Positions 5,850 through 53,375 of a stretch of DNA of 64,000 nt are shown in pieces; position 1 is the first letter of the stretch; each line of letters begins with the position of its first letter. The notes below the pieces were generated by a model. That model was not told where the DNA came from. It was given only the letters and a program-made list of their open reading frames with translations, and did not search any database. The stretch is from Acanthochlamys bracteata (taxonomy: Eukaryota > Streptophyta > Magnoliopsida > Pandanales > Velloziaceae), in the NCBI GenBank assembly GCA_019914995.1, contig CM034127.1, forward strand, positions 124,001-188,000, given 5' to 3'. Both the position numbers and the translations under genes were made by a program.

Positions 5850-8530
5850 GCTGGCTTGGTTTTTTGGCTGTTGGTATGTTCAAACTACAGAGTAGAGCTT
5901 GTCTGAAATGCCTGAGTCCATCCTTTCCAGTTATATATCATTCAGAAAATACATCACCCGCTTTTTTATGAGAAAAGGTGTCAATTTGAGGTTTTCTTTT
6001 GGTGATTGTGTTGGATTTTGACTTGCAATAGCCAGGTAAATGCCTAGTTTCTGCTCTTTTGTTTTTGTGTTTTCCTTTCCTTTTCCTTTTTTTGGTTGCA
6101 GTTTGTATATTGCCCTACACGGCAAGCGTATCTAAGTTACCTTGTATAAAACATAGATAGTATTACCATTGTAAGTATGCTCTTTAAGTTTTAACAGTTA
6201 GGAGTTTGTTGAAAGGTAATGCATGATGAAGTTCCTTATAGTATGGTTTGTTTTCAGTTACAATACTCCTTAATGTCTGATTTTGTCGAGGCTTCTATAT
6301 TAGTCAACAGAATTTTGTAAAAGTTTTTTATACAACGAAAAAAGTATCGTAGTTAATATTGGATTCATTAATCTAATATTTGGATAACATTCTAATTTAT
6401 TAGTCAAAAAATATTTAAAAGAACAGAAGATATAAAAGAATAGGAAATTGAGAGTAGAGCGTTCCATGTAAAATAGAAGTATATGGCTAGACTTGAATCA
6501 TGTGCAAATGGTGCAATATGTTTGGAATGTGAACTCACAGCAACTGTGGATGCAGAGTGTAGGAGATGTTATGTGTCCCAGGTATGCTCTTAGGCCTCTG
6601 GAAACCTGTTTATGCTCTAGGAAGGAATACACACTGTAGATGCATATGTTTTGTCCATTATTATTATGGTATGCATGAATGTGATTGGCGGGTATGATTG
6701 ACGCATTAATTTATTTAATTGCTTGCTCTCGAATAAGATTGCCTTGGCAGTGTCTAAATCAAGGATGTTGATTGGAATATTAATTTGGACGAGTCTGTTA
6801 CCACCCCCCACAGAAAAGTTTTAGAAGCGGATAAGCATTTATGGTGCTTTTAGAAATTTTTGTTCTTTACCCAAAAGTTTGATTCTTATTCTTGCAAGCT
6901 ACAAAAAAAGAGAAGGGGAGAATCTCTTTAATTTACTTTACTGCTCTCCGCTTTCAATCGTCCAAGTATATGATAGATAGATAAATGTTATTGCTTCAAA
7001 TGTTTACAGCTATTTGAGGAAAATGTTCTTCTTTCAATAGACGTGGAGATTTTTGTAGGCTGCGTACTTTTTGTTATTGCCTTATTGTGGAAATTCATCT
7101 TTATATCTATCTATCTATAATATATGAACTTCTTCATGTTTCTGATATATACAGCCAGAAAAAAATGAAGGAAGAATTATTTTAATGTTGTCGGTGATAA
7201 TGAACGAATGAATGGTGCCAATATGGATTGGGATATGAACAGTTTAGAGATTCTCTTTGACCCCTCAACTAATAGCAGCTTCTGCTTATGGGAAACGAAC
7301 CAGCTTTTTCTGAACTGGCTTTTTTTGTTTGTGTTTGCCCCCTCCTTCGTTCATACGCCTCTCGTGATGGGTTGTAGATTCTGTTCCATTTCCGTTTCTA
7401 TTATTTCTACTTCTGCATCTTAGTATATTTTATAGGAAGGCTATTATTATTATTATTAGATCAATCAATGAAAAAACTATATATTTCTTTCCTTCTTTTC
7501 TTTTGCTTGCTGGCATGTGCACGCATTACTTACTTGATATATATTTTTCATTTGTTTGAAAGAATCGATGGATAATTAGAAACTATTTGTCCTAGGGATG
7601 GAAAGAATATATTTTGAACAGTACTAATAATGGAATATTTTTATTCATAAGCTATTGATTTTATTATCAGATAATTACGAGTGTTGAAGAAGCAGGCATG
7701 CGTCATCCACCCGTCATGTATTTTTATTTTTAGAGAGAGTTTAAACCAATTTCTTTATTATTTTCAAAACACATTATTATTATTATTTTTTTATATCATT
7801 AATTAATTGGTACCTACTTATTAAGAAAGCGGGTTATGAAGCTTTCTCGTTCCACCAATCGCTTTAATAAAAAATAGTAATTAACAATCTCTTTTGAATT
7901 CACCACCTAAGTTTACTTCGTCGTTTATTTTCATTAAAAAAGATCTACCATTTCATATTTACTTAACATGAAATTCTAAAGAATTTGTAAAGATCATGAA
8001 TGTAGTCGCACAAAAAAGACATAATTATAGCGTCTAAAAAAATTGCGCAAATCTAATAGCTTTGAAATCTTCCAGTTCAAGCGTACCGAAAGCTCCATAT
8101 TTAGGTGCTGCTAGAATTTCGTAATCAAATATTCTTTTTTCGTGTTCGATCATGCTTGTTCTTTGTAAAGATAAAACGAGTATATGTATGAAATGTATCA
8201 AATGTTATACAGCCTTACTATATTATGTATAAAATTTCGTATTTTCTTTCTCTACAATAACATTTATAAGAGTATATAATTGTTTATCAAATTATATAAC
8301 TATATATTTTCATACTCAATAAAAGTATATTACTATTAGGGGTCATGATTTTGCAAATTACAGTGGTTATTATAATTATTTTATAACTCTGAATCCTAAA
8401 CAGATTACTTCTATTTTTTATTTTAAAAAAATTATAATTATATATACTTGCGCACGCTACCTATTTCCTGTTTCCACTCATCTCCGTGTTGCGCCGCTGA
8501 TCAAATCATCTCCACTGTCCTTAATTAAAG
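5850..8530. other. Intergenic spacer without recognisable genes
   Basis: After the 3' UTR (to about 6250) the spacer becomes AT-rich. It contains simple ATT runs (7443-7458 and near 7772), scattered microsatellite-like stretches and no conserved frame. The last few hundred bases serve as the upstream region of MIR168. Confidence 0.5.
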
Positions 8531-8533
8531 TAG

Positions 8534-8543
8534 GACACGTGTC
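8534..8543 (+). promoter_or_regulatory. Palindromic G-box/ABRE upstream of MIR168
   Basis: GACACGTGTC is a perfect 10-bp palindrome containing the ACGT core of the ABA-responsive element and G-box. It lies 25 bp before the TATA box and about 216 bp before mature miR168. In Arabidopsis MIR168a has been reported as ABA-responsive through ABRE elements, so a conserved regulatory role is plausible but is inferred here. Confidence 0.6.
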
Positions 8544-8567
8544 AAAATCTTACACGTTTTTCCTTTT

Positions 8568-8575
8568 TATAAATA
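8568..8575 (+). promoter_or_regulatory. TATA box of MIR168
   Basis: TATAAATA sits in a suitable context upstream of a CT-rich leader (CT repeat at 8612-8629). Transcription would start around 8600, placing the miRNA hairpin about 140 bases into the primary transcript. Confidence 0.6.
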
Positions 8576-8734
8576 AAACCTTCTCCATTGCTCCTCCGCC
8601 TCATTGGAGCGCTCTCTCTCTCTCTCTCTTCATTTTTTGTTACTTCCATTCTTTCCTTACATTTTCTGTAGTTTGGGTGATCAATCGATGGCTTGATTGA
8701 TAAATTATAATCTTTTGGGTAAAAGATATGAACG

Positions 8735-8865
8735 CACACCGCCTCGGATTCGCTTGGTGCAGGTCGGGAACCGGCTGACGGTAATCACCTGAGAAGCAAG
8801 GTTTACCAGTTCGATCTGATCACGCCGGATCCCGCCTTGCATCAACTGAATCCGAGCCGGATCGC
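8735..8865 (+). ncRNA. MIR168: MIR168 precursor hairpin (targets AGO1)
   Basis: Positions 8750-8770 match the conserved 21-nt plant miR168, which begins TCGCTTGGTGC and ends AGGTCGGGAA. Positions 8831-8851 (starting CCCGCCTTGC, ending ATCAACTGAAT) match the known miR168* form. The two arms pair with about two mismatches plus G-U wobbles and leave the 2-nt 3' overhang typical of DCL1 products. The stem extends outward through CTCGGATTC on the 5' arm and GAATCCGAG on the 3' arm, and the loop is about 60 nt. miR168 guides cleavage of AGO1 mRNA and so sets the level of the main miRNA effector. The locus has its own TATA box and an ABRE upstream. This is a non-coding gene; the 61-codon frame on the opposite strand is incidental. 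Confidence 0.97.
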
Positions 8866-13956: not shown

Positions 13957-16807
13957 TTAGAGTGTAGATAAAATCAAAGGTTTTCCGCTTCCAGAATGTT
14001 TGCTAGTAATCTTCTCCATCTCTTGAATAAACCTTTCCATCGCCTTCTCCGGCAACTTGACCGGAACAACTATCCTATCCTCTCCTTCTCTGTTTTTAAA
14101 CCTCACATAGTAACTCAGCACCTTCGCCGGAAGACAATCCGTTCCGCAAGTCCCCGGCGCACCAAATATCGCCTTCCCCCACCCGAAATCAGCATCATGG
14201 AACTTCGCCCGCGTCACGTCCGCTGCAACGTACGTGTTGTACTCCCCCACCATTGCAACTGCCGGCCTTCCACGGGCATCCAGCATCGCTGATAGCGACT
14301 GCATGTACTCCCGAGTCACCGGAAACTTAGCTTTAAGGATAAGTTCTAATGCGTAGCTCAGCGGCTCGTCCGAGAGTTTTCCGGCAATCGTGTCCATTGA
14401 GGTGAACACGAATGCGTTACCGTAGAACCCTGCAGGTATCCAGGAGTTGAGCTTGGTGTACGCCGTGAGAACGTTGAGTATGCGAACTCTCTCTTCCGGA
14501 TGAAATCCTAGAGCGATCGTCCTACTGCGCCAGACTGCAGCGGCCAGTATGTCGAACGTGGAGCTACGCCGTAAGATTTCAGGAGACAGTTTGCTACGTA
14601 GCGCTGAGATCTCTCTATCCCCAAAGAAGAAAGACCGCTGAACGGACATACCATTGTCTCCGTCGACTTTGTTGTTCGGCGTTAGTGATGAATGATTATC
14701 AGCTATGTACTCAGGGTGGACAAAGGTGTCGGGCGGCGGCTGCTGCTCAGAAATGAGAAGGTGTCGAGCCCACACCGGCAGCACGGAAGGGAAAGCGGCG
14801 CCACGGGCAATCTCTCCTACGGCGTTTAGGAATTGTACGAGACCTGGACCGTCACAGAGAGTGTGGTTGAACCGGACGGCGAAGACGAAGCCTCCGCATG
14901 CCAGTCTTGTTACCTGCATGCGCATATATGCCATTTGCCATCTTAACTAACTACATAACCAATTTGATTCAGTAATTAATTCTTTCTATAAATTAATAGA
15001 AGGATTATTTCTATAGACCGTACGTGCTAAATCTTACCATCGATACCAATCAAGTGTCAACTGATCAGAAAGTTTTAATAATAAAATTTTTTAGCAGTCT
15101 TCTTATATATCCATCGTTATCCATGAAGCTAGTGGTAATCGCTCAATGTTTTCTAAAGCTAAGTCAGCTTTTCTTATAGATAGATAGGTAGGGGAATTTT
15201 TCATGCTTGATAGCGAAAGGATTTCTTTTTAAATTTTATTGAGAGAAATAATAAGAGGACAAGTCATGTCAATGTGAACTGGTTCTTTTTTTCTTCTCCC
15301 GCAAATAATTATTATGTGACAAAACAAATCATCAACATTTAGTTTATATGATATTGATGATTTGCGTTCCATGTGATTTATTGTTGCTAAAGTAACATGG
15401 GGAGCGTCTTATGAAACTGTCCCAGCTTTTAAATTATTCATTCTAAGGAACATTACTTAATAACTTCATGTTTACTTAATTATAAATGAAATTCTTAAAA
15501 ACAATAAATAAAATGCGAGTTATAAAAAATACTTCATAAAATAAAAATGGAAAACTCACTCACAACATAAAAAAGACACTTTTATAACCATTTCAAGTGA
15601 CGTAAATAAATCCTAGATCAAAAGCGCGTATCTTCAAAAAATGAAGCAATCTTCTTTTGACATAAGGAAAAAAAAAGAACCAAACATATGAGTAGTAGAG
15701 TGTAAGCTGACCACGACCTTAACCGTTGAACAAAGGGAACAAACTTTTACCTTACCCTTTCTTCTCTTCATTCCTAAAACACAGCCATCTTTCTTTCGGT
15801 AGGGCAGGGGCAGCAAACAATTAAAGATTTCAAGTGAATGCTTTAGCACCTTAATTTAATTTTCTCTCAAACAGTCCCACCAGAAAACACTAGTAGTAGT
15901 AGTAGTAGAAATATCATCATAAGAATCTTGCTTGCAGTATTGTTTTTGATTGATTTTGGGATGTTATTAGAAATTGTTGAATATTTCAAGTAGAATCTTA
16001 CTGCACAAGAAAAACAAAATTATTCCGATGATTGGTCGAGATATTATGAGTGATTCATGTTATGTTTGCTTCTGCGTAAACATCACACTATACATAATTA
16101 AAAAAAAAGTTATCCAAGCAGTTCAAAGTCAAGTGATTATTAAAATTTACAGATAATAGCTTAAACTTTTAGATTCAAAAGTTGTCACAGTACAGCGCAC
16201 GATAGTACCGACTTTAATTAAAACAATTTATAAGTTAAATAAAATAATCATCATTGTTAGATTAGACTAATTCCTAACTCCTAATGATTAATTAATTAAC
16301 TAAAGTAAATTAGAAATAAAAAATTAAAGAAAGTACCTGGAAGAGAAGCAAGGGGCATCCAATGATTCTGCTGGAGCCGGGAACATCGAAGGCGAGCTCA
16401 TCGACGCAAGGAACAGGAGGCATTGGAACGTCCCTGAACTGCTCGAGCCGAATATCAGCTTCTGCCTCGATGAACAACACTCCTTCACCAGTGCAATCCA
16501 CAGCCAGCTTCCGTCCAGGACCGAGCTCAACTAGCCGGCCTGCGAGCGGGTAATAGTAAACCAACGCTTTCGCTATCGCGTCTGCGATAACCTTCGCCGG
16601 ATTGTTTCTCACTCTTTTGTTATTATTGGTCGAATTTGGGTAGAACATGATCATGGGTAGATGGAATCTTAGAGTTTCTTGGTCGTCCACGTCCGATAAC
16701 AGCTTCAGCTCTCGCGGCGAGTCAGCTGCTGGACGGATAAGGACGGGAGATTGTCGACGGACGGTGAATACCGATGCTGCCGAGGAAGAAGAAGAGAACG
16801 AAGCCAT
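13957..16807 (-). CDS. BAHD acyltransferase, two exons, intact
   Basis: BAHD enzymes move an acyl group from acyl-CoA to an alcohol or amine in the cytosol. Exon 1 is 16337-16807 (157 codons) and exon 2 is 13957-14913; they join between codons as Q/V to give 475 residues, normal for the family. The start is ATG 16807 (MASFSSSS); a TTG upstream in frame is not used. The catalytic motif HTLCDG (HxxxDG, His174 and Asp178) and the structural motif DFGWG (from residue 399) are both intact. The sequence pattern ([22 protein letters not shown]-like block, YYPLAGRL) places it with benzyl alcohol benzoyltransferase or alcohol acyltransferase-like members. The acceptor and acyl donor cannot be read from sequence. 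It is the 3'-most member of a minus-strand tandem cluster. The intron is 1.42 kb and AT-rich. Confidence 0.93.
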
Positions 16808-17344
16808 AGGATTAAGACGCAATTAAGAACGTTTCTGCTGGAGGGTGTTGCTTGCTTTGTTAATAAGGATAGGTATTTAAGGGGTAGTTCTACATGTTTA
16901 TTTGGGCACATTGAACACGTTTTTGGGAGTGTTTTGAGTTGTTCGACACTTCAACTTGCGCTAGACTTTTGTTTAACTTGGCTTATTTAGTTTGCTTGCT
17001 TACTTCATTATGTTTGACTTCCTGCATTCAAATTAGGTCCTCTTTAAAATAAATTCAAATTAAAAGACAAACAATTAGTAGTACGTGAAACTGTATATCG
17101 TTATGCAAGGCAAACAAAAAGCTCATCTACCGTGATAACAAACAAAAGATTAGCTGAAATTTACGAAAATTTGCGGATTCGTGATGTTGACTCAAGTATC
17201 TAATGTTGACAATATTCGATTAGCGAAGATAGTGCGTACATCGCTTTTGAAGCGTTGGTATTTCTTGGGAGATATTCCGCACGATGGAGTCGCTTACCCG
17301 AACCCGATTTGAAAAAATGGCTTCAGTGAGCCATCGAGCTCAGT

Positions 17345-25851: not shown

Positions 25852-27246
25852 CTACAACGACGACATTAAGAGTGGAGTAGCATTTGTTGTTTCCTTCTGC
25901 TCACTTGTCAATCTCTCGATCTCTGCCGCGAACCTCTGCATCGCCGGTGCCGGCATAAACACCGGCACAACGACCCCACTAACTCCTTCGGAATTCTTAG
26001 ACGGCACGTAGAAGCTTGCCAACCCTGGAACGGGCCCAACACCTGCAGTTGCTGGACCGCCGTATACTCCCCGGCCCCAACCGAAGTCCAGTTTATGGAA
26101 TCCGGCTCTTGTTACGTCTGAGACAAGGTAAGCTCCGGTAACGTTGAAATGGGGACGCCCATGCAACACCATCGTGTCCGCGACCGACTGCATGTACTCC
26201 TGATTGACTTCACTCTTGGCTTTCTTGATCAGCTCCAACGCGTACCCAACTGGTTTGCTACAGAGTTCTCCAGCGTTCGATACGGCGGAGGGGAACACGA
26301 AGGTGTTGCCGTAGTATCCCTCCGGCACGGGAGGGTTTACTAGCTTTCCCCTTCCGCTTACGATGCAAATCATCCGGACATTTTCATTCGGGTTTATCTC
26401 CAAGGCGATCGTCCGGCTTCGCCATATGCATGCGGTGAGGATCTCGAATGTCGAACAGTTGTTACGAAGGTACGGCGGCAAGTGGCTCTTGAGAGCAGAA
26501 GTCTCCGCTGGACCGAAAAAGAAGGATCGGTGAACCATATCGACGGGGACAGGTGGAGGTGGCTGTAATGGAGTGCCGATGTTGTCGTACTCCTTCATGA
26601 TGCATGAAGGATTTGGTCGTGGAGGTGATCGAGCGAACAGGAATTCACGGGCCCATACGGGCATTATGGCTGGAACAGTTTCACCGCGTGCGAAATCGGC
26701 AATCGCAGACATGAACTGCACAAGACCTTGTGCGTCGGACATGGTGTGGTTGAGTCTTAAGGCGAAGATGAAGCCGCCGCAGAGCAATCGAGTAACCTGG
26801 ATGAGAACGAGAGGGCAGTCAGTGACGCCGTCCGATCCTTCGACGTTGAAGAGCAGTTCATCCAGACATGGGAACGGCGGCTGCAACGCGTCTCCGAATT
26901 GCTCGAGACGAACATTGGCATCGGCTTCGATGAACAACACACCTTCTCCGTTGCAGTCGACGACCAGCTTTCTGTCCGGCATGATTTCTCGAAGCCGTCC
27001 GGCCAAAGGGTAGTAGTGCACCAAAGCTTTCGCTAGCGCATCACGTATGACTTCAACCGGATTTCTTCCGAGCATGGACGGATTCTGGCGGTAGACGTGG
27101 ATCACCGGAATGTGAAACCGAAGACCCTCTTGGTCGTCGATGTCGGATAGAGGAAGAAACTCTCGGGGCCTCGGCTTCGCCGGAGTCACAAGTACAGGAT
27201 TCTTTCTTCGTACCGGGAAATTTAGCGGAGAAGCTGAAGCTGCCAT
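25852..27246 (-). CDS. BAHD acyltransferase, single exon, intact
   Basis: An uninterrupted 464-residue frame from ATG 27246 (MAASASPLNFPVRRKNP); an in-frame TTG five codons upstream is ignored. The motif order is that of the family: YYPLAGRL near residue 80, catalytic HTMSDA (His167 and Asp171, with Ala in place of the usual Gly after Asp), and DFGWGRG from residue 387. HTMSDA is common among benzyl-alcohol benzoyltransferase and fruit alcohol acyltransferase-like members, so volatile ester formation from an alcohol and acyl-CoA is a reasonable inference; the actual substrate is unknown. Unlike its neighbour at 13957-16807 it has no intron, although VLIQ/VTRL spans exactly the position of that intron. 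TATATAAATAG lies about 115 bp upstream. Confidence 0.95.
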   Translation of the reverse strand: MAASASPLNFPVRRKNPVLVTPAKPRPREFLPLSDIDDQEGLRFHIPVIHVYRQNPSMLGRNPVEVIRDALAKALVHYYPLAGRLREIMPDRKLVVDCNGEGVLFIEADANVRLEQFGDALQPPFPCLDELLFNVEGSDGVTDCPLVLIQVTRLLCGGFIFALRLNHTMSDAQGLVQFMSAIADFARGETVPAIMPVWAREFLFARSPPRPNPSCIMKEYDNIGTPLQPPPPVPVDMVHRSFFFGPAETSALKSHLPPYLRNNCSTFEILTACIWRSRTIALEINPNENVRMICIVSGRGKLVNPPVPEGYYGNTFVFPSAVSNAGELCSKPVGYALELIKKAKSEVNQEYMQSVADTMVLHGRPHFNVTGAYLVSDVTRAGFHKLDFGWGRGVYGGPATAGVGPVPGLASFYVPSKNSEGVSGVVVPVFMPAPAMQRFAAEIERLTSEQKETTNATPLLMSSL

Positions 27247-27357
27247 GGAATGATTGACCAAGTCTAGTCTTGTTCTTGTAGTTCTAATGCAACAACAAAG
27301 AAATAAATGCTTGTTAATTGTTGTTGTTGTATGAAGAATAAAGTGAATCGATTGGCG

Positions 27358-32393: not shown

Positions 32394-35300
32394 ATGAGGA
32401 GATTGGTTTGCTGCCGCCGGCGAACAAAAGATTTCAGCGTCGATTTCGAGGAGAGCCAAAGTACGTGTTAGCAAATCATCGTCAATCTTTTTCTGCTTCA
32501 AAAGTTCTACTGCAAATTGAAATCTTTTTAAGGATCTGTTCTTGCAAAATGTGATACTTATAATAATGAAGTCAATTGAACTATTAGACTGAGATTTAAT
32601 GGAAGCGAATGCCTAATTCCAATGGGCAGCACATACCTTGTTTGTTGGAACAAGGGACAAGAGTTTCAGCTGAAAATAGGTCGCCGTTCGCAGTTTCTGT
32701 CCAGCATATATGGCGGATACTTTGTGTTCGACAGTAGCTGTTTGGTGGATGAGATAGACAAGTAAATTGAGTGATGAAGAATTCTGTAGGGACTTTCTGT
32801 AGGTGTGGTAGATGTAGAGGAGTAAATGCGTACAACGAGCGAGTCTTCGTTCCTTTTATTCAGACTTGTCAGAAAACACGTACATGAGTAATGGTGGTGC
32901 CATGTTGCTGCTGTGCGAATTGCAATAGTTTTTTATTTAATACTTTCTATTTATGTCTGTTCGTTTTTAGATGTAGAAACTTTGTTAATTGATTAAACAA
33001 GCTCTTAAATCGTTGACATCAAACACTGATTTTTGGTTAGCTTTAGGACTAAAGTTAATTGCTTTTCTTGATGCCTTTGCCAACTGTTGGAGAACTTTGA
33101 ATATCTGTCCAAATTGTGCAGATCTTTTGGTCCAGATCACAACCAATTTGAAACTTGGAAGCTGGTTTAAAATCCAATATGAGTAAATTCTGGTCTAGGA
33201 AAGATTAATCTGGTTGCATTTGGTGTCCTAGCAGCATCAAAATAATTGGTAGCAAGGTCTTCGAGCTTGAACAGACAAGTGTTTGTATTCACATATGTTG
33301 ATCTAGAAGCTTCTTGAATATTTAGATTGCATATGTTCCATTGAAATTAAAATCTTAGAAAATACTTATGGGGTAGGCTGCCATCTTGAAGTTTTGAAGT
33401 ACCACTGATAACTGTAAGCATTTGCAAGCAGGTTGTTTTTGTTTGTGGTGTCTAGGTTGTATGCCATACAACATAAACTAGCACTTCACTTTTTGGTCCA
33501 CCAAGGAAAACATAATGTGCGTCAATAATGCAGGGATTGTGTCATATAATGGCCTCGAGAGTCGTATACTCGACAGCTGCTCCTACGAAAATGCTAATAG
33601 AATTAGCATAGAAGCCGATGGTTGTGCAGCCACTGAGTCCATGGGGGAAGATGCGTCAAGCTGTTCTTCATCCAGCAAGGATGCCTTCGGTTCTTCTTTT
33701 TCCTCGCAATATATGGCGTCGAGCAAGCAGGAAGATGAACTACCACAGCTTGATGAATGGGAAACTCTGAACAGCCTTGGCCAATTATGTGCAAAGGGCA
33801 AGGCACCAATTGTATATACCATGGAAGCCTCTGACATTGAGTCAATGAAAGAGAAATTCGCAAGATTGTTGCTAGGTGATGATGTATCTGGTGGAGCCAG
33901 AGGGATGAGCACTGCTCTGGCACTGTCCAATGCTATCACAAACCTTTCTGGTAACTTCTCAATTTGAAGTTATGTGGTTGTTAGCTTATATCTAATCAGA
34001 AATTTCCTTGTGTGGTACTAGACATGGCTTATTTTATCAATTACTTCATGTTGTTCCAGCATCTGTGTTTGGTGAATTATGGAAGTTGGAACCTTTGTCT
34101 GATAATAAGAAGGGCAGATGGCGGAAGGAGATGGATTGGCTTCTCTATCCTACAAATTACATGATTGAATTGGTGCCTGCGAAACAAAGCGGTGCCAATG
34201 GCCGGACATTAGAGGTATAGGTTTGCAATGTCATCAATCTTCAGTAGCCAGCTTTCTCTTTGCTTCTTTTGCCTACCACTTTTTTCTTCCATTTTTCAAT
34301 TTGCAGATAATGACACCTAAAGCCCGTTGCGATGTTCACACTATTCTTCCTGCACTTCAAAAGCTTGATGCAATGCTTCTAGTGAGTTTTGTGATTTTCT
34401 TCCAATTCTGAAATTTCATGATTTCTTGCAGTTGCTAATAGGAAACTACATGGTACCTGAAAATCACTGCAGGAAGTATTAGATTCGATGGTAGAAACGG
34501 AGTTTTACTATGATGAAATGGGCAGCAGAGCTGAAGGCAGGAGTCGAGATGGCCCAAGGTTAAGTATGAAATGGTGGCTACCTTCTCCCCGTGTTCCTGA
34601 TGCAGGGCTTTCCACTGCCCAACGTAAAAGGCTCGGTTTCCAAGCGAGGCTGGTTCATCAAGTTCTGAAAGCTGCAAAATCTATCAATGAACAAATTCTT
34701 CTCCAAATGCAGATACCGCCTGCCGTAAAAGTTGCTCTTCCAAAGGTAAGCAGCTGTTCAAGGCGCGTATCAGTCACAACTCAATGTATTGTATTTGAGC
34801 GCAACGTGTTTGGCTATGATTTGTTGGTTGCAGACGGGGAAGACGAGCCTGGGCGAGGTAATGTACCATGCTCTAACTGCAGAATCCATAACAGTGGAGG
34901 AAATAATGCTCTCGCTTGATTTGAAAACCGAGCATTCTGTCCTCGAGACTGTGAACCGTTTGGAGGGTGCGGTTTTCGCTTGGAAACAGAAGTTAATGGA
35001 AGAAAGTGAAAAGAGATCACCGATCAGGTATCCTTGGTACTTCGTGAGAGACATTGGTGGGGATATTGAAAGAATAGAATTTGCTCTAGAAAAAGCAGAA
35101 GTTCTCTTAAGGCTTCTAAAGTATAGGTTCCCAAACCTTCCTCAAACGTTCATCGATGTCACTAAAGTCCAATACAACAAGGTAAATTATAGCATATCGA
35201 AGTATCATCTTGATCACCTCATTGATTTAGTGTTCATTGATTTTATGTTTGGATGAAGGATATCGGGCATTCGATTGTGGAAGCGTATTCGAGAGTCATT

Positions 35301-47841: not shown

Positions 47842-50150
47842 ATGTCTCACACAGTATCCATGGCTCAAAATCTGTCTTCTTCTTCCTGGAAACAAAAGCC
47901 TCACGCTTGCTTCATGGGCATGGTTCTTACTTTACCCAGGTAATAACTGACATCCGCTTCATGCATGCCTTCAACTATCAAACATGAAATTTTAAGTATA
48001 TCATTAATTTGAACTAATTCTTCCCGTCACTAACTTACTTCATTGGGACACAACTCCTATTAAAGACTTGTATATCAACCTCTCTACCTTCTTATGCTAT
48101 ATAACTGTTCTTCTAGGGCTTCTCCATTGTCTTCTTTGAATTAGTTAATCTCTTTGCATGCAGTTTATTCTTCTCAAAATCAAACTACGAACCTCTTGAG
48201 TTCTTCTTAAATAAGTACTATGGTTGCTCTACTTCCCCAATTCTGCTCTGCAACCTTTCTCTCTTCTACCTGGAAAACAAAGTCTAACTTGTTTCTCAGG
48301 TGATCATGCTGCCTCGTGTTTCTATCTTTCAAACAAAAATGAAACTTTAATAAACATCAACTAATTAATTAACTATGTTCAGGCTAGCTTATCTTTTCAA
48401 ATATTCAAGCTTAGCTTGTTGTAACATGCTTGTTGTTTCTGTGCATGTATATATGTCTGTTTGAACGAAAGAAGCAGAGATTTGAAGAAGAAAACTCAGC
48501 TGCTTAGCCTACGTAGAACAAGTCCAACTAAAACATCAAAGAAGAAGACAGCAGTAGTTATGATTGCCATGGCACCGGAGAAGCTTGAAATCTTCAAGTC
48601 CCTGGAGCCCTGGGCGGAAGAGAACATCCTGCCATTGCTGAAGCCCGTAGAAGAATCGTGGCAGCCTCAGGACTTCCTTCCTGATCCTTCCTCCACGGAT
48701 GAAGATGAGTACATTGAATCAGTGAAAGAGATACGAGCGCGGTCTTCTTCAGTGCCTGATGAGTTCTATGTCTGCCTAGCTGGAAACATGATCACGGAGG
48801 AGGCATTGCCGACATACCAGAATGTTTTCAACACGTTTGAAGGGGTGAGGGATGAGACCGGAGCGAGCCCAACACCGTGGGCTTGCTGGATCAGGCAGTG
48901 GTCAGCAGAGGAGAACCGGCACGGAGATCTGCTGAACAAGTACCTCTGGCTTACCGGACGCATTGATATGAGGCAGGTTGAGAAGACGGTACAGTACCTC
49001 ATCGGTGCAGGCATGGTATGTATGTTGTTTGTTTCCTGTTTTCTGTCTAGAAATTCTTGCAGGAACATTAAGTGGTTGTTCTGCGCTCGCAACGATGCTG
49101 ATCACATAATTAATTTAATGGGCACGTCTCATAATGCTACATATGGCGAATTTAGCTTCACCTTCGAATTTCAAACATTTAGGCCGCGTAGTGCGTTCTT
49201 TTTCAACTTATTTTGTTAATAATTTTAATAATTTTAATAATATTTTATAAAATTTATTAAAAATTTAAAAATTATAGATTGGTTTTTATAGCTTTAAAAC
49301 CTATTATCATTTATTATTATTATTATTTAAATAAAAAAAAATTAAATTTTTTTTAAATAAGATAAAATTATTTTTTTATTTTAAAAAATATTTTTTAAAC
49401 ACTCGCAAATAATCCCCCCTGATTTTGAAGGACTGAAACTCTATGAATTTAGCTTTTTTTTTTTTTCTTTTGTCTATACTTTGTATTTCAAATGAACTTT
49501 TCACTATATGGTAACATTACATTATTGATCACATCTTTCTTTAAATGTTTTGGCCGTGTATGTGTTCGTAGGACATCCATACAGAGAACAACCCTTACCT
49601 AGGCTTCATCTACACTTCATTCCAAGAGAGAGCAACCGCAATCTCCCATGGCAACACCGGCCGCCACGCCAAGCATCATGGAGATTCCACACTGGCCAGA
49701 ATCTGCGGAACAGTCGCAGCTGACGAGAAGCGTCACGAGGCTGCCTACTCTACCGTCGTCGCCAAACTCCTCGATCTCGATCCAGACACAACAATACTAG
49801 CCCTGGCAGACATGATGATGAAGCGCATCACGATGCCTGCCTTATTAATGTTCGACGGTAAAGACAGAAACTTGTTTGGGCACTACTCTGCTGTCGCGCA
49901 GAAAGCAGGAGTTTATACAACTAAAGATTATGCGGACATCATTGAGCATTTTGTTAAGAGATGGGGAATCGAGAAGCTTAGCTGCGGTTTAACTGGAGAG
50001 GGAAGGAGAGCTCAGGATTATGCTTGCAACCTTCCCCAGAGGATCAGGAAAGCTGAGGACAGACTTCAGGCCTTGATGAAGAAGAGCAATGCTGCAACAA
50101 CTACCATGGTGCCTTTCAGTTGGGTGTTCAACAGGAATGTTAGCATTTAA
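47842..50150 (+). CDS. Divergent plastid acyl-ACP desaturase (stearoyl-ACP desaturase family)
   Basis: Soluble diiron enzymes that put the first double bond into acyl-ACP in the plastid stroma, using ferredoxin. Exons 47842-47939, 48478-49015 and 49572-50150 give 404 residues (family about 395). The start is ATG 47842 or the in-frame ATG 47860 ([14 protein letters not shown]). The N-terminus is Ser/Lys-rich, as expected of a transit peptide. The mature part begins near [20 protein letters not shown]. All six iron ligands are present: Glu140 (MITEE), Glu178 and His181 (EENRHG), Glu231 (FQERAT), Glu264 and His267 (DEKRHE). Substrate-pocket positions differ from the castor 18:0 enzyme: 114 Val, 115 Phe, 118 Phe, 179 Ile, 200 Ala and 207 Gly (castor numbering; this protein is +35). 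An alternative first exon lies at 48220-48299. Chain length and regiospecificity may therefore differ from the standard delta-9 18:0 reaction. Confidence 0.95.
48094..48103 (+). promoter_or_regulatory. TATA-like box ahead of the second candidate first exon
   Basis: GCTATATAAC lies about 120 bp upstream of ATG 48220, inside what is otherwise intron 1 of the desaturase gene. Its position fits an internal promoter. Confidence 0.45.
48220..48299 (+). CDS. Candidate alternative first exon of the desaturase gene
   Basis: ATG 48220 opens [20 protein letters not shown] and runs 80 nt to a donor (TCTCAG/gtgatc). This leaves phase 2, exactly as the first exon at 47842-47939 (98 nt) does, so it can join the same exon 2 at 48478. 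The two exons are homologous: SSTWKTKS matches SSSWKQKP, and similarity continues past the donor (for example ctttcaaac/caactatcaaac). It would encode an alternative transit-peptide start. Whether it is expressed is unknown. Confidence 0.6.
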
Positions 50151-52826: not shown

Positions 52827-53375
52827 TTATTCTTTCTTCTTTGCAGGCTTGATGACAGCTGGAATCCAGGAAAACCAAAACAGAGGTAAAACACTGAATC
52901 CTGCCTGAATAAGAATTGCTGTTGGTAATTTTTCAAGGTTGCTTCTGAAATGCCAACATCCCAAGCAAAGAGCAACCCCAAAATATCCGCTGATTATTGA
53001 TGCAAGTGCAACTGCTGACATGACAAATGCCATTACGGAACCCTCGCAACCGGCCGGGCAGATCTGCGCTATCAGCACAGTGGAAGGCAACATCTTAAAA
53101 TGAACAACGCCTCCAGCAAGCCCGAGAACATGACAACGTATATGGAGTCTGAAACTCCCATTGTTCTGTAAAATCCCTTCACGAACAGCATATGAGACAC
53201 CATAAACAAAGCAATGGTCACCTGGAGGGCTGACAAGATCTTCCTCACTGCAATCCCCTTTAGCGTATTGTTATTCGCCATACACCAAACGAGTATAGAT
53301 GCCTGACCTAAAACCTTGGATAGACCTATTACTGATGAATCAAGATTCAGGTGCTGGATCTGGTAAAAAAACATT

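Follow-up and report, generated by a model that had tools for sequence, protein, structure and literature searches.

The castor stearoyl-ACP desaturase was reportedly redesigned in the 1990s by the pair of exchanges L118F/P179I, which moved its preference from 18:0-ACP to 16:0-ACP. Its Asp280 contacts ACP and steers regioselectivity, and we take Arg117 together with Lys280 to be the marks of the ivy-type delta-4 desaturase. The five-residue exchange between delta-6 and delta-9 enzymes (positions 181, 200, 205, 206 and 207; castor numbering throughout) is said to have run in the opposite direction to the account in a paper on cacao. That paper describes castor converted to delta-6.

Eight pocket positions set chain length and line the acyl tunnel at its lower end (PMC8002970; PMC6554319). 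Entrance residues control both regioselectivity and the mode in which ACP binds (PMC8002970), and T117R and D280K variants of castor yield unusual products (PMC4396352, PMC9795026). A bulky pocket-bottom residue has been reported for 16:0-ACP enzymes (PMC7772203; PMC8002970): the natural 16:0 enzyme of cat's claw carries Trp118 (PMC7772203), and orchid SAD5, also a natural 16:0 enzyme, carries L145F, although residue 145 may not equal castor 118 (PMC8002970). The natural 16:0-ACP enzymes identified by 2018 were limited in number, and their tunnels differ (PMC5790276). In cotton, GhA-SAD6 and GhD-SAD8 prefer 16:0, whereas GhA-SAD5 and GhA-SAD7, which have an altered pocket and had been put into the 16:0 group by their residues, prefer 18:0; four enzymes are named as assayed, and prediction from residues was wrong for two of them (PMC6554319). 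Delta-9 myristoyl-ACP desaturases occur in Pelargonium (PMC8002970; PMC9825965).

A three-exon desaturase gene

The stretch of DNA that we analysed, 64,000 nucleotides from Acanthochlamys bracteata (the window), holds on its plus strand a three-exon desaturase gene. Translation and a splice-site check gave a protein of 398 residues with the sole stop codon at its end; the introns lie in phases 2 and 0 and have GT/AG borders. This two-intron pattern is the one typical of the FAB2/AAD2 orthogroups, which usually have introns in phases 2 and 0 (PMC11859870). A sequence-only reading had placed the gene at 48478-50150, which covers exons 2 and 3 and leaves out exon 1. The features of the locus are as follows.

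47842-47939, plus strand: candidate alternative first exon of 32 residues; phase-2 donor GTAATA, joins exon 2 in frame
48220-48299, plus strand: exon 1, with the start codon and the first part of the presumed plastid transit peptide; 80 coding bases, phase-2 donor GTGATC
48478-49015, plus strand: exon 2, with ligands E105, E143 and H146 and pocket residues V114, F115, T117 and F118; ends at a codon border (phase 0)
48824-48829, plus strand: codons for V143 and F144 (castor M114 and L115)
48836-48838, plus strand: TTT codon for F147 (castor L118)
49572-50150, plus strand: exon 3, with I179, T181, A200, G207 and G280, ligands E196, E229 and H232, and the stop codon
49575-49577, plus strand: ATC codon for I208 (castor P179)
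49638-49640, plus strand: GCA codon for A229 (castor F200; Ala in the Thunbergia delta-6 enzyme)
49659-49661, plus strand: GGC codon for G236 (castor A207), a residue that the C1 duplicate lacks
49878-49880, plus strand: GGG codon for G309 (castor D280; Lys in ivy, Val in the C1 duplicate)

In a profile search, residues 61-392 of the protein matched the Pfam family FA_desaturase_2 (PF03405) with 491.2 bits against a cut-off of 22.7, and the translation contains the EENRHG and DEKRHE boxes. Nine distinct PDB sequences matched it. Eight are plant-type acyl-ACP desaturases (castor and its variants, 7PP7, 7T63, ivy) and the ninth, 1ZA0, is a distant mycobacterial-type protein (E 2.7e-9). Since the protein is 67% identical to castor over 336 positions, its desaturase fold is beyond doubt. 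Its N-terminal 57 residues, the presumed transit region, contain 15 S/T and 12 K/R but a single D/E, and from family and N-terminus we infer a location in the plastid stroma. The gene appears to encode a functional plastid soluble acyl-ACP desaturase that has diverged from the housekeeping stearoyl-ACP type. A search for relatives in bacterial and archaeal genomes returned 28 stretches that fitted a pattern, none of which was confirmed.

Exon 1 is conserved in a duplicate of the gene on contig C1 (local score 90; the highest of 300 shuffles was 33) and numbers the two central pocket residues F147 and I208. The upstream candidate would instead produce a 404-residue isoform in which they are F153 and I214, the numbers given in the sequence-only reading, which are exact for that isoform. 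It may provide an alternative transit peptide, and nothing in the 20 kb that we searched on C1 matches it convincingly. It weakly resembles the nearer first exon (local score 34, maximum 29 in 300 shuffles).

Pocket and active-site residues

We aligned nine rows: the window protein, castor (1OQ4), the Thunbergia delta-6 enzyme (7PP7), the ivy delta-4 enzyme (2UW1, a partial chain) and five genes of the same genome, the three PDB rows being taken from the PDB alignments of the window protein. All six iron ligands (E105, E143, H146, E196, E229, H232) are in place in every row, as had been claimed for the window protein. At positions 114, 115, 117, 118, 179, 181, 188 and 189 the window protein reads V F T F I T G F, compared with M L T L P T G F in castor, and so departs at four of eight positions from the pocket of the archetypal delta-9 stearoyl-ACP desaturase (M114, L115, T117, L118, P179, T181, G188, F189). 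The alignment with castor, Thunbergia and ivy bears out the earlier assignment of Phe118 and Ile179. It also agrees with that assignment at the five delta-6/delta-9 positions, which read T A N T G: Ala200 and Gly207 differ from castor, while Thr181, Asn205 and Thr206 match it. Three further changes, V114, F115 and G280 (castor M114, L115 and D280), had escaped notice. At position 280 the window protein has Gly and its duplicate Val, whereas castor and four other enzymes of the genome have Asp or Glu, ivy has Lys and Thunbergia Gln. T199 and D228 are retained.

The window protein shares with castor the family, the six iron ligands and residues T117, T181, G188, F189, N205 and T206, and differs from it by M114V, L115F, L118F, P179I, F200A, A207G and D280G. 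With F118, I179 and F115 it carries the bulky hydrophobic pocket bottom expected of a delta-9 palmitoyl-ACP desaturase. We summed assumed residue volumes over the eight pocket positions. The window set exceeds castor by 77.5 cubic angstrom, and the engineered L118F/P179I set exceeds castor by 77.2; the two coincide because M114V and L115F cancel. On the same volumes, the cat's claw set is larger than castor by 61.1 cubic angstrom, the Thunbergia pocket bottom is smaller rather than bulkier, and the set of Arabidopsis AAD2/3 is larger by only 3.3, though these enzymes are 16:0-specific, which makes volume alone a poor rule.

By its residues, the pair formed by the window gene and its C1 duplicate is a natural version of the reportedly engineered pocket in a known enzyme family. 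The window protein has the two engineered residues and the same summed volume, but it also carries V114, F115, A200 and G280 and departs from castor at roughly one in three aligned positions. Phe118 alone and Ile179 alone are already known in nature. The diatom 16:0-ACP desaturase PtAAD has Phe at 118 but, unlike the window protein with Val114, Thr181 and changes at 115 and 179, has Leu at 114 and Ala at 181 (PMC7772203). Ile179 is found in the multifunctional delta-4 desaturase of ivy (2UW1), which otherwise has R117, C118, S181 and K280, and in sesame SiSAD7, which has Cys118, Leu181 and Thr188 and whose function is predicted only (PMC9657858). The Thunbergia delta-6-16:0-ACP desaturase 7PP7 and its relative 7T63 share A200, Ala234 and, with the window copy, G207, and 7PP7 also Ser237; yet 7PP7, at 62% identity, has T118, P179, A181, S205, L206 and Q280, and 7T63 has A118.

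Neither castor nor ivy, 7PP7 or 7T63 combines the two residues, and the combination is also missing from the other four unbroken desaturase genes that we detected in this genome. Phe118 is absent from all 29 entries of two published tables (17 cotton, 7 sesame and 5 reference enzymes; PMC6554319, PMC9657858), and a narrow survey of the accessible literature on L118 and P179 of acyl-ACP desaturases returned no description of an F118 and I179 pair.

The duplicate and the desaturase family of the genome

Desaturase genes were sought in the genome (195.5 Mb in 557 contigs) with both large exons as queries; the best candidates were scored, so further genes may exist. The closest relative is the duplicate on C1 (L018):

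6656-6741: first exon of the C1 duplicate
6845-7388: second exon
8166-8750: third exon

The proteins of the two copies are 82% identical. The duplicate has an unbroken frame, intact splice sites and the full diiron site. Coding stretches beside the window gene (about 50.6-51.1 kb and 52.7-53.4 kb) recur on C1 in the same order and orientation, and because of this collinearity the pair most likely stems from a segmental or whole-genome duplication. Over 397 codons (Nei-Gojobori) dN is 0.102 and dS 0.667; the resulting dN/dS of 0.153 shows purifying selection on the pair, a pairwise value that cannot show constraint on each copy alone.

Both copies carry V114, F115, F118, I179, T181 and A200, whereas the duplicate has A207 and V280, leaving Gly207 to the window copy. 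As both carry them, the changes V114, F115, F118, I179 and A200 would most simply predate the duplication. The retention of five such residues is unremarkable at 82% identity. A sequencing slip is an unlikely source of the pocket residues, since the gene is unbroken and shares them with a duplicate at a synonymous distance of 0.667.

The search also found three FAB2-type genes, on C4, C6 and C16, whose two main exons we modelled, and a second gene on C16 with a frame unbroken from Met to a phase-0 intron, as expected of the AAD1 type with its single intron (PMC11859870). All four have P179; three have L118 and the C6 gene V118, so that neither F118 nor I179 occurs in any of them. The C6 gene further has Cys and Asn in its LSGRVDM motif (LCGRVNM). 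The C4 and C6 genes (L020, L021) are 91% identical with a dS of 0.314, about half that of the window/C1 pair, which may point to gene conversion or to a more recent duplication. On C18 (L024, 6489953-6491127, minus strand) lies a FAB2-type copy that is disrupted by an in-frame stop and by breaks of the frame, and C1 has a weak desaturase fragment with three stops.

Divergence and tree placement

The window/C1 pair is divergent overall (67-68% identity to castor), and both copies are altered at 19 positions where, gaps disregarded, the other seven sequences do not vary. Enrichment of changes in the pocket was not significant. The same change from castor is found in both copies at 4 of 8 pocket positions and 75 of 328 others (one-sided Fisher test, p = 0.09). 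Among positions invariant in five 18:0-type sequences, a type shown for castor and assumed for the other four, 2 of 6 pocket positions and 23 of 200 others changed in both copies (p = 0.16). The pocket changes are real and shared, yet statistically do not rise above general divergence.

In a ten-row tree, the pair forms a long branch with support 100/100 and lies weakly beside the Thunbergia type (61/45). Groupings with the single-intron gene on C16 (p-AU 0.415) or with ivy (p-AU 0.097), alternatives chosen after a first tree, were not rejected. Nine positions are shared with Thunbergia only by at least one copy, five of them by both; the corresponding both-copy counts are four for the single-intron gene on C16 and three for ivy, whose row is shorter, which leaves Thunbergia a slight excess. 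Membership in the Thunbergia delta-6 type (A181, A200, S205, L206, G207) is rejected with two of five residues in the window protein and one of five in the duplicate. The window protein also lacks the ivy-type delta-4 residues (R117, K280), having T117 and G280.

Substrate and double-bond position

The sequence-only reading had proposed an altered substrate or double-bond position. The alignment supports an altered and bulkier pocket bottom. The hint at delta-6 activity in that reading is weak, with two of five residues in the window copy and one of five in the duplicate. The enzyme probably makes an uncommon fatty acid. Our leading reading, tentative and a little short of an even chance, is a neofunctionalised acyl-ACP desaturase with a shallower pocket that favours 16:0-ACP and makes 16:1 delta-9. 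This activity is predicted because Phe118 and Ile179 would shorten the tunnel: they would fill its end by about the volume of two to three methylenes, a 16-carbon chain would then sit with C9-C10 at the diiron centre, and 16:0-ACP would be converted to 16:1 delta-9 (omega-7) in preference to 18:0-ACP. Counting against it, the exchanges at 114 (Met to the smaller Val) and 200 (Phe to the much smaller Ala) could re-open space, and ivy and SiSAD7 pair I179 with Cys118, ivy being no simple delta-9 16:0 enzyme. That the changes compensate one another and 18:0-ACP stays the best substrate of an ordinary or broad delta-9 desaturase is doubtful, although a serious possibility. The volumes of M114V and L115F cancel, A200 frees space, T199 and D228 are kept, and the cotton enzymes GhA-SAD5 and GhA-SAD7 preferred 18:0-ACP despite altered pockets (PMC6554319); yet L118 and P179 are both replaced by larger residues in both copies, unlike in the four other unbroken genes found.

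The position of the double bond is uncertain because Phe200, one of the five delta-6/delta-9 residues, has become Ala and the acid at 280 is lost. These changes could alter the docking of chain and ACP such that 16:0- or 18:0-ACP is desaturated at delta-6, delta-4 or elsewhere, an outcome that we consider unlikely. The Thunbergia delta-6 residues are present at 200 in both copies (Ala) and at 207 in the window copy (Gly), the Gly or Val at 280 sets the pair apart from the Asp or Glu of castor and the genome's four other enzymes, the Lys of ivy and the Gln of Thunbergia, regioselectivity and the way ACP binds depend on entrance residues (PMC8002970), and both the nine Thunbergia-only positions and the weak tree grouping (61/45) point the same way. 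However, T181, N205 and T206 stay delta-9-like, the duplicate lacks G207, the both-copy share of the nine exceeds those of ivy and the C16 gene only slightly, the tree neither shows nor excludes the grouping, and the Thunbergia pocket bottom is smaller than that of the castor type. A 14:0-ACP enzyme producing omega-5 monoenes, with the second aromatic residue F115 beside F118 deepening the blockage, would have a precedent in the myristoyl-ACP desaturases of Pelargonium (PMC8002970; PMC9825965), but the net pocket volume equals that of the engineered 16:0-type pair, and we regard it as very unlikely. Least credible of all is a decaying or non-catalytic paralogue: the 19 otherwise invariant positions changed in both copies and the broken copy on C18 would fit it, whereas the dN/dS of the pair, the intact frames and splice sites of both copies and the full diiron site speak against it.

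The pair, with members that diverge at 207 and 280 and with standard-pocket relatives in one genome, would offer a clean system for separating chain-length from double-bond-position residues; it would also be a possible source of omega-7 oils. A bolder version, which we think improbable, is that a separate duplicated lineage naturally reached F118/I179, relaxed 280 and 200, and makes an unusual 16-carbon monoene, possibly not delta-9.

Other features of the window

Six further features were recorded elsewhere in the window. A 24% match to the BAHD frame at 25855-27357 lies on C1, roughly 10 kb past the duplicate desaturase, and the two BAHD frames at 13960-14946 and 16313-16822 jointly span the profile like two exons of one gene.

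8732-8862, plus strand: MIR168 microRNA precursor (Rfam, 77 bits)
13960-14946, minus strand: open frame, Pfam Transferase (BAHD)
16313-16822, minus strand: open frame, Pfam Transferase (BAHD)
25855-27357, minus strand: long open frame, Pfam Transferase (BAHD acyltransferase)
34461-34916, plus strand: open frame matching the PRONE (Rop exchange factor) family
52830-53270, minus strand: open frame matching the BT1 family
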